Shown here: in pieces, positions 4,840 to 63,612 of the stretch
Layout: every line of letters begins with the position of its first letter
How positions within the stretch are numbered: the stretch's first letter is position 1
DNA from: Jiella pelagia
GTDB taxonomy: Bacteria; Pseudomonadota; Alphaproteobacteria; Rhizobiales; Rhizobiaceae
Reading direction: 5' to 3'
DNA: 64,000 nt
Assembly (NCBI RefSeq): GCF_026898155.1
Contig: NZ_CP114029.1
Span: 1,991,501-2,055,500 of the forward strand
Notes under the pieces: model-generated
The model's database searches: none
Seen by the model: only the letters and a program-made list of their open reading frames with translations
What the model was told of the DNA's origin: nothing
Program-made: the position numbers and the translations under genes

Positions 4840-6471
4840 GCGGGAGCCCTTTCCTGCATCTGCCCGGCGCCCCCGCCGCAGACGCGGATTTCGGAGCGCT
4901 CCTTCATCTGCGCGCGGACGGCATCGCGGCGTTCCGCCGCCTTTGCGGCGCGGTCCGCGGCTGCCTCCCAATCATCGAGCTGCGCCTCGGCGAGCTTGCG
5001 CGTCTCGTCGAAATGGAAATCGACGGTTTTCTTGGTCTGCGGTCCCCAATAGCCGGACTTGCCGAGATCGTAGAAGGTCCGGCGGAAACCGGCCCGAAGG
5101 AAGGCGTAGAGGCAACCCAGAAGATAGCGGCGGCGAAAGCCGGTGCCCCGCCAGGGATAATGGAACAGGGCCTTCTGCATATAGAAGCGGCGGTAATTGT
5201 TCATGACGCCGTCGAGAAGCTCGCCGCGCTCCATCGCCTTCGGCTTCATGATCGGCGTGACGAAATTGTATTTGGAGAAATCGAAGACCTCGACCCGGTC
5301 CTTCAGATCCTGAAACAGCGGGGTATAGGGCCAGGGCGTATACATGGACCAGTTGGCAAGATCCGGCTGCCAGTCCCAGGCCATGCGGTAGGTCTCTTCA
5401 AGCGTTTCGGGCGTCTCGTTGTCGAGCCCGACGATGAATTGCGCCTCGACCAGAATGTCGGCCTCGCGCAACAGTCGGATCGCGGTGCGGTTCTCGTCGA
5501 CCTTGGTTTCCTTGTTGAACTGGTCGAGCTTCAGCTGCGCCGCAGCCTCCGTCCCGAGGCTCACATGGACGAGCCCGGCCTTGCGATAGAATTTCAACAG
5601 GTCCCGATCGCGATAGATGTCGGTGACGCGGGTGTTGATGCCCCATTTCACCTTCTTGGGCAGGCCCCGGGCGATGAGGCTCCTCGCAAAAGGCGACGAA
5701 CTTCTTCTTGTTGATGGTCGGTTCCTCGTCGGCGAGGATGAAGAAGCCGACGCCATGGTTCGTCACCAGATCCTCGATCTCGTCGACCACGTCCTTCGGG
5801 TCGCGGACGCGATAGTCCCGCCAGAACTTCCACTGTGAACAGAAGGAGCAGGTGAAGGGGCAGCCACGGGCGAGATTGGGAATGGCGACGCGGGTGTTGA
5901 GCGGCAGGTAGATGTATTTCTTCCACTCCAGGATCGACCAGTCCGGCTTGATCGTCGACAGGTCCTGAACCGTCCGCGCCGCCGCCGTGGCGACGATCTC
6001 CTCGCCGTCGCGAAAGGCGAGGCCCTTGATCTTGCGCCTGTCCGACGGCCAGCGCCCGTCGCGGATCGCGCTCATCAGCTCGGTGCAGATCTCCTCACCC
6101 TCGCCGCGCACGATCACATCGATCCAGGGCGCCTCGCTCAAGACCTGCTTGAACATGAAGGTCGCGTGCACACCGCCCATCACGCGAACCGCCTTGGGCA
6201 CCGCGTCCGACGCGATCCTGAGGACCTCTTCGGCACGGTAGATCGACGGGGTAATCGCCGTGACGCCGACCACGTCCGGCTGAATCTCCCGCATCCGCTC
6301 GGCCAGATCGGCGTCAGCGAGATTGTCGGTCATGGTATCGATGAAATGGATGTCATCGAAGCCGGCGCGCCGTAGATGGCCGGTGAGGTAAGCCACCCAG
6401 GCAGGCGGCCAGGTCCCCGCGATCTCGGCGCCGCCGGAGCGATAATTCGGATGGACGAACAGTATGCGCAT
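4836..6471 (-). CDS. bchE: BchE, anaerobic Mg-protoporphyrin IX monomethyl ester cyclase (one-base insertion at 5676-5682)
   Basis: BchE is a radical-SAM, B12-dependent enzyme that forms the fifth (E) ring of bacteriochlorophyll without oxygen. The corrected protein is 544 residues, close to the family's usual 550-575. An N-terminal cobalamin-binding-like domain (MRILFVHPN) is followed by the radical-SAM cysteines CPFTCSFC near residue 196 (CxxxCxxC) and a C-terminal region typical of BchE. The ATG at 6471 has GGAGG five bases upstream, better than an ATG at 6507. The frame is broken by an extra base in GAGGCTC (5676-5682); removing it gives CEELIARGLPKKVKWG. An FNR box lies 55 bases upstream. 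Confidence 0.87.
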
Positions 6472-6525
6472 GGCGGCCTCCACACCGGTGAAAGCTGAGA
6501 CTGACACCCAAAGTGTCCAATTTCT

Positions 6526-6539
6526 TTGACACAGATCAA
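6526..6539 (-). promoter_or_regulatory. FNR/FnrL-type operator upstream of bchE
   Basis: TTGAC-N4-ATCAA matches the FNR-family consensus (TTGAT/C-N4-ATCAA). Its centre is about 61 bases upstream of the bchE ATG, which fits class II activation at -41.5 with a roughly 20-base leader. A TTGGAC hexamer on the minus strand just downstream could be a -35; no clear -10 is seen. FnrL control of bchE under low oxygen is established in Rhodobacter. Its action here is inferred. Confidence 0.7.
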
Positions 6540-6679
6540 GCGGCCACGACGTGCCCTGCCCGCTCGGACGCGGCCCTGCCGAATAGGATGGGGACGGGGT
6601 ACCGGCCGCGTCCGTCGATTGAAAACATCGGCTCGCCCGTTAGCTTCTTCCCGAAACATGAAAAACGGAGGGGCGTGAA

Positions 6680-7550
6680 ATGGCGAAGGTCGCATTCATC
6701 GGACTGGGCGTAATGGGCTATCCCATGGCCGGGCATCTCAAGGACAAGGGCGGTCACGACGTCACCGTCTGGAACCGGACGAGCGCCAAAGCGGAAAAAT
6801 GGGCCGACCAGTATGGCGGTGACCATGCCCCCTCGCCCCGCGCTGCCGCCGACGGCGCCGACTTCGTCTTCATGTGCGTCGGCAATGACGACGACGTGCG
6901 CTCCGTCGTCTATGGCGAGGACGGCGTCTTCGCCGGCATGAAGAACGGCGCGACGCTGATCGACAACACCACGGCGTCTGCCGAGCCTCGCCCGCGAACT
7001 CGCCGCAGGCGCCAGCGACAAGGGCGTGAAATTCATCGACGCCCCGGTTTCCGGCGGCCAGGCAGGCGCCGAGAACGGCGCGCTGACGGTCATGTGCGGC
7101 GGCGAGGAGGCGGATTTTGCAGCGGCAAAGCCGGTCATCGAGGCCTATGCCAAGATGGTCGGGCTGATGGGGCCGGCAGGCTCCGGCCAGCTGACCAAGA
7201 TGATGAACCAGATCTGCATCGCCGGCCTCGTCCAGGGCCTCGCCGAATCCATCGCCTTCGGCCAGAAGGCCGGCCTCGACGTCGAAAAGGTGGTCGGGGT
7301 GATCTCCAAGGGCGCCGCCGGCTCCTGGCAGATGGAAAACCGCCACAAGACGATGAACCAAGGCCACTACGACCACGGCTTCGCCGTCGAATGGATGCGC
7401 AAGGATCTCGGCATCTGCCTCAGCGAAGCCAAGCGTAACGGCGCACGCCTGCCCGTCACGGCGCTGGTCGACCAGTTCTATGCCGAGGTCGAGGCGATGG
7501 GCGGCAAGCGCTGGGACACGTCGAGCCTCTTGGCGCTGCTCAATCGCTGA
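6680..7550 (+). CDS. NAD(P)-dependent beta-hydroxyacid dehydrogenase, 3-hydroxyisobutyrate dehydrogenase-like (insertion at 6983-6989)
   Basis: The corrected product is 289 residues, the normal size for the 3-hydroxyisobutyrate dehydrogenase / tartronate semialdehyde reductase family. It begins with the Rossmann motif GLGVMGYPMAGHL (residues 8-20), continues with the substrate-binding DAPVSGGQAGAENG segment, and carries the catalytic lysine in GSGQLTKMMNQ. An extra base at GAGCCTC (6983-6989) splits the frame. Without it the join reads NTTASAELARELA, as in relatives. The natural substrate could be 3-hydroxyisobutyrate, tartronate semialdehyde or a sulfonate; the context does not decide. It stands alone between bchE (divergent) and lrp (convergent). 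Confidence 0.85.
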
Positions 7551-7586
7551 GGTTGTCCGACCTTCGGCAGCGCCGCCTTTCGGCGC

Positions 7587-62246: not shown

Positions 62247-62756
62247 ATGTCTCAGACGAACGACGCCAATGGCAGCCAGGCTGCGACCCCCGGTCAGGAC
62301 GCTACCCCGCCGGCCCTCAACATCCTCACCCAGTACATCAAGGACCTCTCCTTCGAGAGCCCGAACGCACCGGCGATCCTGCGCAGCCAGTCCCGCGGAC
62401 CGGCGATCAACATCGGCGTCAATGTCGGCGCCAACCAGATCGAGGGCACCCAGAACGAATTCGACGTCCGGCTGACGCTGAACGCCAAGGCCGGCGAAGG
62501 CGCCGAGATGCTGTTCGCCGTCGAACTGGAATATGGCGGCGTGTTCCGCATGCAGAACTTCCCGCAGGAGCACCTCCTCCCGCTGCTCTTCATCGAGTGC
62601 CCGCGGCTGCTCTTCCCCTTCGCCCGGCAGGTCGTCGCCGACGTCACCCGCAATGGCGGCTTCCCGCCGCTGATGATCGATCCGATCGACTTCGCCAAGC
62701 TGTTCCAGCAGCGCATGGCCGAGGAGCGCGCCCGCCAGCAGGTGCAGACGGCCTGA
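62247..62756 (+). CDS. secB: Protein-export chaperone SecB
   Basis: The 169-residue cytosolic tetrameric chaperone holds preproteins unfolded and hands them to SecA. The family core runs from ALNILTQYIKDLSFESPNAP (about 22-41) to LFPFARQVVADVTRNGGFPPLMIDPIDFAKLF (about 126-157). The N-terminal 20 residues are polar, as in relatives. ATG 62247 follows GAAAGG at a normal distance; the longer frame from 62190 has no support. It converges on dnaQ with a shared terminator. Confidence 0.95.
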   Translation: MSQTNDANGSQAATPGQDATPPALNILTQYIKDLSFESPNAPAILRSQSRGPAINIGVNVGANQIEGTQNEFDVRLTLNAKAGEGAEMLFAVELEYGGVFRMQNFPQEHLLPLLFIECPRLLFPFARQVVADVTRNGGFPPLMIDPIDFAKLFQQRMAEERARQQVQTA

Positions 62757-62805
62757 TCGCTCAGCCCTCTCCGGCCTGAGGCCGCGCACATCCAACGCAG
62801 CGAAG

Positions 62806-62835
62806 ACGCCGGCCGAGCAATCGCGCCGGCGTTTA
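62806..62835. terminator. Two-way terminator between secB and dnaQ
   Basis: ACGCCGGC (62806-62813) pairs with GCCGGCGT (62825-62832), followed by TTAT. It lies between convergent genes, so it can serve both. Confidence 0.6.
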
Positions 62836-62873
62836 TCGTTCTCGCGTCGGCAGAGCCGACCGGGCAAGCCGTC

Positions 62874-63612
62874 TCACCCGGCCTTTGCCTCCAGCTCCGC
62901 CTTTGCCGGCCGTTCCAGATACCGCCACCACATCGCCTCCTCGCCGAGGCTCGTGGCGAAGGCGAGATGGCGCGCCGCTTCCGCTTCCGTGAGCCGCGGC
63001 GCCAGCGGGGTCGGCCGTTGCGCAATCTGGTAGGCCGACGCTCCGCCGCTCTCGGCCCCCGCCCCTCGGTCGCCGCCGAAGGTCAGGCCGAGCGCCGCCT
63101 GCCGGCCGCCGATCAGCTCGATATAGACGTCGGCGAGAAGCTGGGAGTCGAGAAGCGCCCCGTGCTTGTCGCGCCGTGAGGTGTCGATCGAAAAGCGCGA
63201 GCAGAGCGCATCGAGGGTCGCCGGCGCCATCGGAAACTTGCGCCGCGCCATCGCCAGCGTGTCGAGGACGCGCTCCTGCCCGATCGGCGGCTGGCCGAGA
63301 CGGCCGAGCCTCGGCATTGAGGAAGCGAATGTCGAAGGTGGCGTTATGGGCGATCAGCCGGCCCTCGGCGAAGAACTCGAGAAACTCCTCGAGCACCTCG
63401 GAAAACACCGGCTTGTCCAGAAGGAACTCGTCGGAGATGCCGTGGACGTCGAAGGCGGCCGGATCGACCTTGCGCCCTTCCGGCCGGATGAAGACGTGAA
63501 ACTCCCGGCCCGTCGGAATGTGGTTCCACAGTTCGACGCCGCCGATCTCGATGACCCGTTCGACGGCCGGATCGAGGCCCGTGGTTTCGGTGTCGAAGAC
63601 GATCTCGCGCAT
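62874..63612 (-). CDS. dnaQ: DNA polymerase III epsilon subunit, proofreading exonuclease (insertion at 63306-63312)
   Basis: The corrected product is 245 residues. It gives the replicase 3'-5' proofreading. The exonuclease motifs are DTETTGLDP (ExoI, residues 7-15), HNATFD (ExoII, about 97-102) and HGALLDSQLLADVY (ExoIII, about 162-175), with a C-terminal stretch that binds the polymerase. An extra base at GAGCCTC (plus strand) splits the frame just after ExoII; without it the join reads FLNAELGRLGQPP. The ATG at 63612 is the family start. It is essential or near-essential, so a true break is unlikely. Confidence 0.93.

Follow-up and report, generated by a model that had tools for sequence, protein, structure and literature searches.

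The 64,000-nucleotide stretch of the Jiella pelagia genome analysed here (contig NZ_CP114029.1, G000:C1:1991501-2055500, hereafter the window) raises the question of why its genes, dnaQ and sucA among them, are repeatedly broken by a single surplus base at one short motif. The genome to which it belongs spans 5.95 Mb in three contigs. An earlier interpretation made from the letters alone (the sequence-only reading) had listed sixteen frame breaks, each with one extra base in the centre of the palindrome GAGCTC, giving GAG-N-CTC, and had proposed that the DNA is chemically modified at GAGCTC and that consensus calling adds a base there. This proposal is supported by genome-wide counts, by tests of other palindromes and by a motif-blind scan for frame breaks. 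We conclude that the surplus bases are, with high probability, a systematic consensus error at a GAGCTC modified on both strands, whichever enzyme writes the mark.

To place the insertions, the window was aligned to 20 stretches from five same-genus genomes, and 56,629 of its 64,000 bases were covered by at least two of these. Over its best segments the window sucA matches Jiella endophytica at 90% identity and Jiella flava at 88%, which likely puts the genome in or near Jiella (Aurantimonadaceae). All sixteen GAG-N-CTC coordinates were recovered, with N being G nine times, C six times and T once, and N is indeed surplus, the same-genus relatives being one base shorter at every listed site. 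Fourteen of the fifteen covered sites are net +1 against all of their two to five covering relatives, while the fifteenth, at 14616, is +1 against its single covering relative. The site at 5676 lies outside the five-genome coverage and was compared with a sixth relative (L135, 95% identity). The sixteen listed sites stood, and the total did not: the window has seventeen, the addition being at 33792. This site was missed because a -1 difference at about 33782-33792, a few bases upstream, hides it, leaving the permease reading frame open with a short altered stretch.

The window holds 27 GAGNCTC in total, not 16. Seven of the others (1344, 7523, 23555, 25893, 26715, 55734 and 62946) show no +1 against the covering relatives, with a -1 beside 55734 in two of its four covering relatives. 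The copy at 5556 is natural: the BchE profile passes through it and L135 aligns there without a gap. The copy at 46548 is ambiguous, since only one of its two covering relatives shows it as +1, and that at 33586 lies outside the relatives' coverage. Among the differences that are unanimous in at least two relatives, 18 are +1, of which 14 fall at GAGNCTC, and two are -1, neither of them at GAGNCTC. The claim that every frame break sits at the motif held for the sixteen sites and failed for at least one coding break elsewhere, at 24200-24216. This difference, off GAGNCTC, is +1 against all four covering relatives and breaks the frame of an ATP-binding cassette (ABC) transporter ATP-binding gene. 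Three more unanimous +1 differences (31427-31428, 33399-33403 and 62242-62247; two to four relatives) also lie off GAGNCTC.

Genome-wide counts, which the sequence-only reading had suggested as a check, were obtained by pattern searches, using the reversed motifs as controls (CTCGAG for GAGCTC, CTCNGAG for GAGNCTC) and nine same-genus genomes as the baseline. GAGCTC was found to be depleted, with 353 copies against 2,349 of CTCGAG (ratio 0.15, compared with 0.515-0.741 in the nine relatives). GAGNCTC was found in surplus, with 2,360 copies against 1,161 of its control (ratio 2.03, compared with 0.911-1.063). Scaled by the relatives' means, the deficit of GAGCTC comes to some 1,218 copies and the excess of GAGNCTC to about 1,200, so the two balance, and from these numbers about 77% of an estimated 1,570 or so GAGCTC sites are affected. 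Among 28 palindromic hexamers with enough counts, GAGCTC is the lone strong low outlier at 0.154. The next-lowest palindrome, TTCGAA, stands at 0.554 and has no surplus of its one-base-longer form, and in the same ratio test the neighbours GGGCCC and AAGCTT show no depletion. The more detailed tests covered 20 stretches of 20 kb together with the window (464 of 5,946 kb), and here too, when hexamers are ranked by z-score, GAGCTC shows the strongest depletion, with 21 copies against 161 scaled from relatives.

Reading frames gave the same picture. A codon-usage test could decide 113 GAGNCTC cases, 73 more being unclear, and called 70 of the 113 a +1 break. For the remaining 63 palindromic NNN-N-NNN classes together the figure was 365 of 6,122. 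False positives do occur, since the same test on GAGNCTC in relatives returned 6 of 36. A 7-state hidden Markov model for frame breaks returned 33 shifts, a rate equal to that of relatives, and proved insensitive, so flank scoring was used instead. The motif-blind scan found 229 breaks in the genome's own sequence, 52 of them beside GAGNCTC where about 6 were expected, and 49 of these 52 were +1 breaks. The other 177 are close to the number expected from the relatives' rate (148 in 349 kb, 5 beside GAGNCTC). An even spread of breaks over other hexamers, which the sequence-only reading had named as the result that would undo the motif link, was not seen; the excess over background sits at GAGNCTC. 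Such a genome-wide concentration of errors at a single motif is expected of a modification-induced consensus error.

Ordinary gene decay or random assembly error would fit the few off-motif differences, including the frame break at 24200-24216. Pseudogenisation is expected to scatter breaks over many sequence contexts, whereas the motif-blind scan puts the excess at GAGNCTC. The specificity for one motif and for the +1 direction, and the presence of housekeeping genes among those hit, argue against both processes, in agreement with the earlier claim that neither is at work, and we regard them as extremely improbable.

Every affected site reads with one base more between its GAG and CTC halves; the change occurs only at the exact hexamer and in genes on both strands (29 and 41 broken sites by gene strand). 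The added base is G or C at 65 of the 70 sites called broken and, in gene sense, is C in 33, G in 32, A in 3 and T in 2. The GAG is in codon phase at 65 of the 70, five being called out of phase. The insertion is also reproducible, since positions 14441-14800 of the window are duplicated elsewhere in the same genome (L121 3504-3863), identical over the 360 bp compared, and the duplicate has the same inserted base in GAGCCTC and the same intact GAGCTC nearby. This is what a deterministic fault of the caller predicts.

The regular phase and the shared base of the duplicate could also be taken to mean that the genome really contains the extra base and that ribosomes skip it at GAG-N-CTC under a fixed-phase rule. 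The phase bias is natural, because in relatives too 80 of 83 intact GAGCTC have their GAG in codon phase, and the five out-of-phase sites do not follow such a rule. Skipping would further have to accept a base that varies in gene sense, and some 1,200 insertions would have to have occurred in parallel within one lineage, with the surplus present in none of the nine same-genus genomes. Programmed +1 frameshifting, in which the extra base is conserved in relatives, does not describe the case, as the relatives lack it at the covered sites and have no GAGNCTC surplus. Ribosomal RNA was considered as a recoding-proof test; RF02541 gave no match in the genome (8 of 66 candidates scored) and a relative's ribosomal RNA operon has no GAGCTC, so this test was uninformative. 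Ribosomal skipping is hardly credible.

An alternative closer to the preferred explanation is that bare GAGCTC is miscalled by the basecaller or polisher, with no modification needed. The effect is exactly sequence-specific and the identical duplicate behaves identically, both of which this alternative would explain. GAGCTC is a common sequence, so recurrence would be expected in other assemblies, and a survey of 397 genomes of the order was made. Among the 396 other genomes, 13 picked by eye, including G071 and G095, have a GAGNCTC ratio above 1.5. Nine of those 13 (G055, G059, G060 and G140, with small counts, were left out) have GAGCTC ratios between 0.39 and 3.0; the J. pelagia value is 0.15. 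Among the genomes checked for both, only J. pelagia combines loss of GAGCTC with surplus of GAGNCTC. Assemblies made by the same method may be absent from the survey set, which weakens this argument; even so, a fault at the unmodified sequence appears quite improbable. One genome of the survey, G259, which is 99% complete, has a GAGNCTC/CTCNGAG ratio of 1.69 with abundant GAGCTC (3522 versus 3695), and is not an instance of the same signature.

A modification at GAGCTC is very likely, and its effect on the consensus can be pictured as follows. A palindromic target marked on both strands would alter the signal of every read; neither strand would be read correctly, and greater depth of coverage would therefore not correct the call. 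Should the mark be on the inner cytosine, which is plausible for a cytosine-5 enzyme, two marks would occupy the two central positions, and the added base falls between these positions. One of them is the inner cytosine itself, and the other lies opposite the matching cytosine of the complementary strand. The platform would presumably be of a single-molecule type without short-read polishing. It is also conceivable, if unlikely, that the mark is bulkier than plain methylation, comes from an MTaX1-linked locus and is read as an additional nucleotide, in which case the assembly would be a map of a new mark.

The sequence-only reading had also pointed to a methyltransferase search, and this search identified one PF00145 cytosine-5 methyltransferase, the sole member of its family in the genome, at G000:C1:1356652-1357947 on the minus strand (E 2.1e-56). 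Its residues P80, P81, C82 and Q83 and E125, N126 and V127 are invariant in 26 aligned members, so the protein has the PCQ and ENV motifs of a cytosine-5 methyltransferase. The gene directly follows an MTaX1 and nuclease-like gene, itself split at GAGGCTC, and because of this position it resembles the modifying member of a type II restriction-modification pair. A homologue of the MTaX1 neighbour has a nuclease-like half, and the C-terminal half of the J. pelagia copy is probably nuclease-like as well; the partner sequence had no match at E 1 among solved structures. The PF00145 methyltransferase is moderately likely to be the writer of the GAGCTC mark. Its relatives at E 1e-100 or better occur in six other genomes of the 397, with 52-61% identity, and an MTaX1-type neighbour (about 44% identity) was found in two of the six when 1.5-kb flanks were searched.

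The mark may instead have another writer, such as an N4- or N6-methyltransferase or another system, with the PF00145 enzyme acting elsewhere; this possibility overlaps with the preferred explanation and differs from it in the writer only. A search with PF01555 gave two further genes, one of CcrM type (L192) and one helicase-methyltransferase-like open reading frame (L193), and further modification families lie outside the search. The six genomes with more distant PF00145 relatives also favour another writer, since they lack the signature. Against it, the L193 match is weak (52.9 bits), and CcrM is a GANTC enzyme. The check for a restriction partner covered the PF00145 neighbourhood only, so its having a partner is not a comparison between candidates. 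A different writer seems to us somewhat unlikely. The L193 frame itself (601-2430) has a weak N6/N4 methyltransferase domain, adjoins a helicase-like open reading frame and is possibly part of a prophage.

Several observations weigh against a modification-driven error written by the PF00145 enzyme. Roughly one site in four is intact, with no clear flank rule when intact and broken flanks were compared; the flanks of broken sites are similar to those of GAGCTC in relatives, and those of intact sites are slightly different. The identical insertion in the duplicate would fit a real, inherited insertion as well. The six genomes with PF00145 relatives have GAGNCTC ratios of 0.86-1.16 and GAGCTC/CTCGAG ratios of 0.50-4.6, although other targets or other sequencing methods could account for this. 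The GAGNCTC ratio of J. pelagia is exceeded in two genomes with low counts, G071 (2.10; 231/110) and G095 (2.24; 110/49), both of which retain GAGCTC. The MTaX1-nuclease gene has a second break, one base short, off GAGNCTC (L191 reverse-complement about 1361-1376; 10 of 12 homologue comparisons), so the gene may be inactive, or this part of the assembly may be faulty. The methyltransferase search covered PF00145 and PF01555, which are two of several modification families, others being PF02384, Dam, the Eco57I type and Dnd. Finally, the modification errors described for nanopore assemblies in the available parts of two reports (PMC12392509, PMC12016153) are substitutions, whereas here a base is inserted at most copies of one palindrome.

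Gene names at the sites come mostly from profile searches of the window's own open reading frames, because the relatives' genes chosen by length or by codon score were often antisense frames. These profiles agree with the earlier claim that normal family proteins are split, as those for acrB, bchE, lpd, dnaQ and sucA run across reading frames. Coordinates below are those of the window, given without strand. At 5676..5682 (GAGGCTC, bchE) there is a one-base gap to L135, and the BchE profile covers 1-263 and 256-497 in two frames. The GAGCCTC at 6983..6989, in a gene of the tartronate semialdehyde reductase family, is +1 against three of three relatives, with profile segments 1-96 and 113-284 in two frames. 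Three sites are recorded by their insertion, namely GAGGCTC at 12560..12566 (+1 against 2/2), GAGCCTC at 14616..14622, which lies in the duplicated segment, and GAGCCTC at 22454..22460 (+1 against 4/4). GAGGCTC at 24484..24490 in an ABC transporter ATP-binding gene (+1 against 4/4) changes the frame relative to a relative's frame of 510 amino acids, and GAGGCTC at 26176..26182 lies in an ABC transporter permease region (+1 against 4/4). At 31116..31122 (GAGCCTC, nucleoside hydrolase, +1 against 4/4), the profile match of the frame 30261-31460 begins at position 26. The seventeenth site, GAGCCTC at 33792..33798, is in a tripartite ATP-independent periplasmic (TRAP) fused permease gene (+1 against 4/4).

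Two GAGGCTC sites break the acrB-family gene, at 39927..39933 (+1 against 4/4, ACR_tran split 307/304) and 41059..41065 (net +1 against 4/4, split 683/687), so that the profile extends over three frames (3-307, 304-683 and 687-1020 of 1021). The lone GAGTCTC, at 44162..44168 in lpd, is +1 against 5/5, with profile segments 2-185 and 182-461. Three more sites, each +1 against 5/5, are GAGGCTC at 48834..48840 in sucB, where the profile match of the frame 48439-48951 ends at position 38, GAGCCTC at 49415..49421 in sucA, whose C-terminal domain is in another frame, and GAGGCTC at 51915..51921 near the sucA start. GAGGCTC at 57351..57357 (+1 against 4/4) lies in a regulator-like gene with weak helix-turn-helix family matches, and GAGCCTC at 63306..63312 in dnaQ (net +1 against 4/4) separates profile segments 1-102 and 110-232. 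The five intact GAGCTC are exactly where they had been reported, at 15009..15014 (likewise intact in the duplicate), 19799..19804, 28451..28456, 39798..39803 and 55358..55363. In a plasmid collection searched with 20 kb each of contigs 2 and 3, no record covered 80% of either, near records possibly being omitted.

If the preferred explanation is true, about 1,200 apparent insertions have no biological basis, the breaks in dnaQ, sucA, sucB, lpd and acrB among them, and the low completeness of the genome (84.97, as reported by the tool) is likely to be at least partly a reading fault. It also suggests a test that needs no reads, in which a missing palindrome and a surplus of its one-base-longer form are each compared with a reversed control. 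Applied to public genomes, such paired counts could pick out motifs that are modified and assemblies that were not polished. They would also suggest that a methyltransferase family found in several alphaproteobacterial genera targets GAGCTC.

SacI and Ecl136II-type restriction-modification systems recognise GAGCTC. They would share the target proposed here, and the partner here carries an MTaX1 domain. MTaX1 systems (PF20296) are reported to place an MTaX1 gene beside a DNA cytosine-5 methyltransferase, with discrimination of modified DNA proposed (PMC10853773); J. pelagia has the same gene pairing, with a probable nuclease-like C-terminal half. Cytosine-5 methylation of GRGCYC is reported in native DNA of Propionibacterium freudenreichii, which BanII did not cut (PMC11649196); that motif includes GAGCTC and is degenerate, whereas here GGGCCC is unaffected and GAGCTC is exact. 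Cytosine methylation of GAGCTC is described for a clade of marine viral genomes (PMC9516812), the passage dealing with viral contigs and not mentioning insertion errors. Among the matches listed in the one literature collection searched, for GAGCTC together with nanopore or with methyltransferase, methylation and motif, no title or abstract opening deals with insertion at GAGCTC, and a general one-base insertion at a modified motif is not reported in the parts of the cited work consulted. In bacterial nanopore assemblies, basecalling errors are reported to be linked to modification and can persist in the consensus (PMC12392509, PMC12016153), and the first of these gives a total of 42 differences, across all its strains, that methylation may have caused. 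Those errors go with modified motifs or bases, as the present ones probably do. The insertion of one base at the majority of a palindrome's copies is an extreme form of such basecalling errors, and J. pelagia provides a striking and useful instance of an error type already known, which would become new biology only if the mark itself is unusual.

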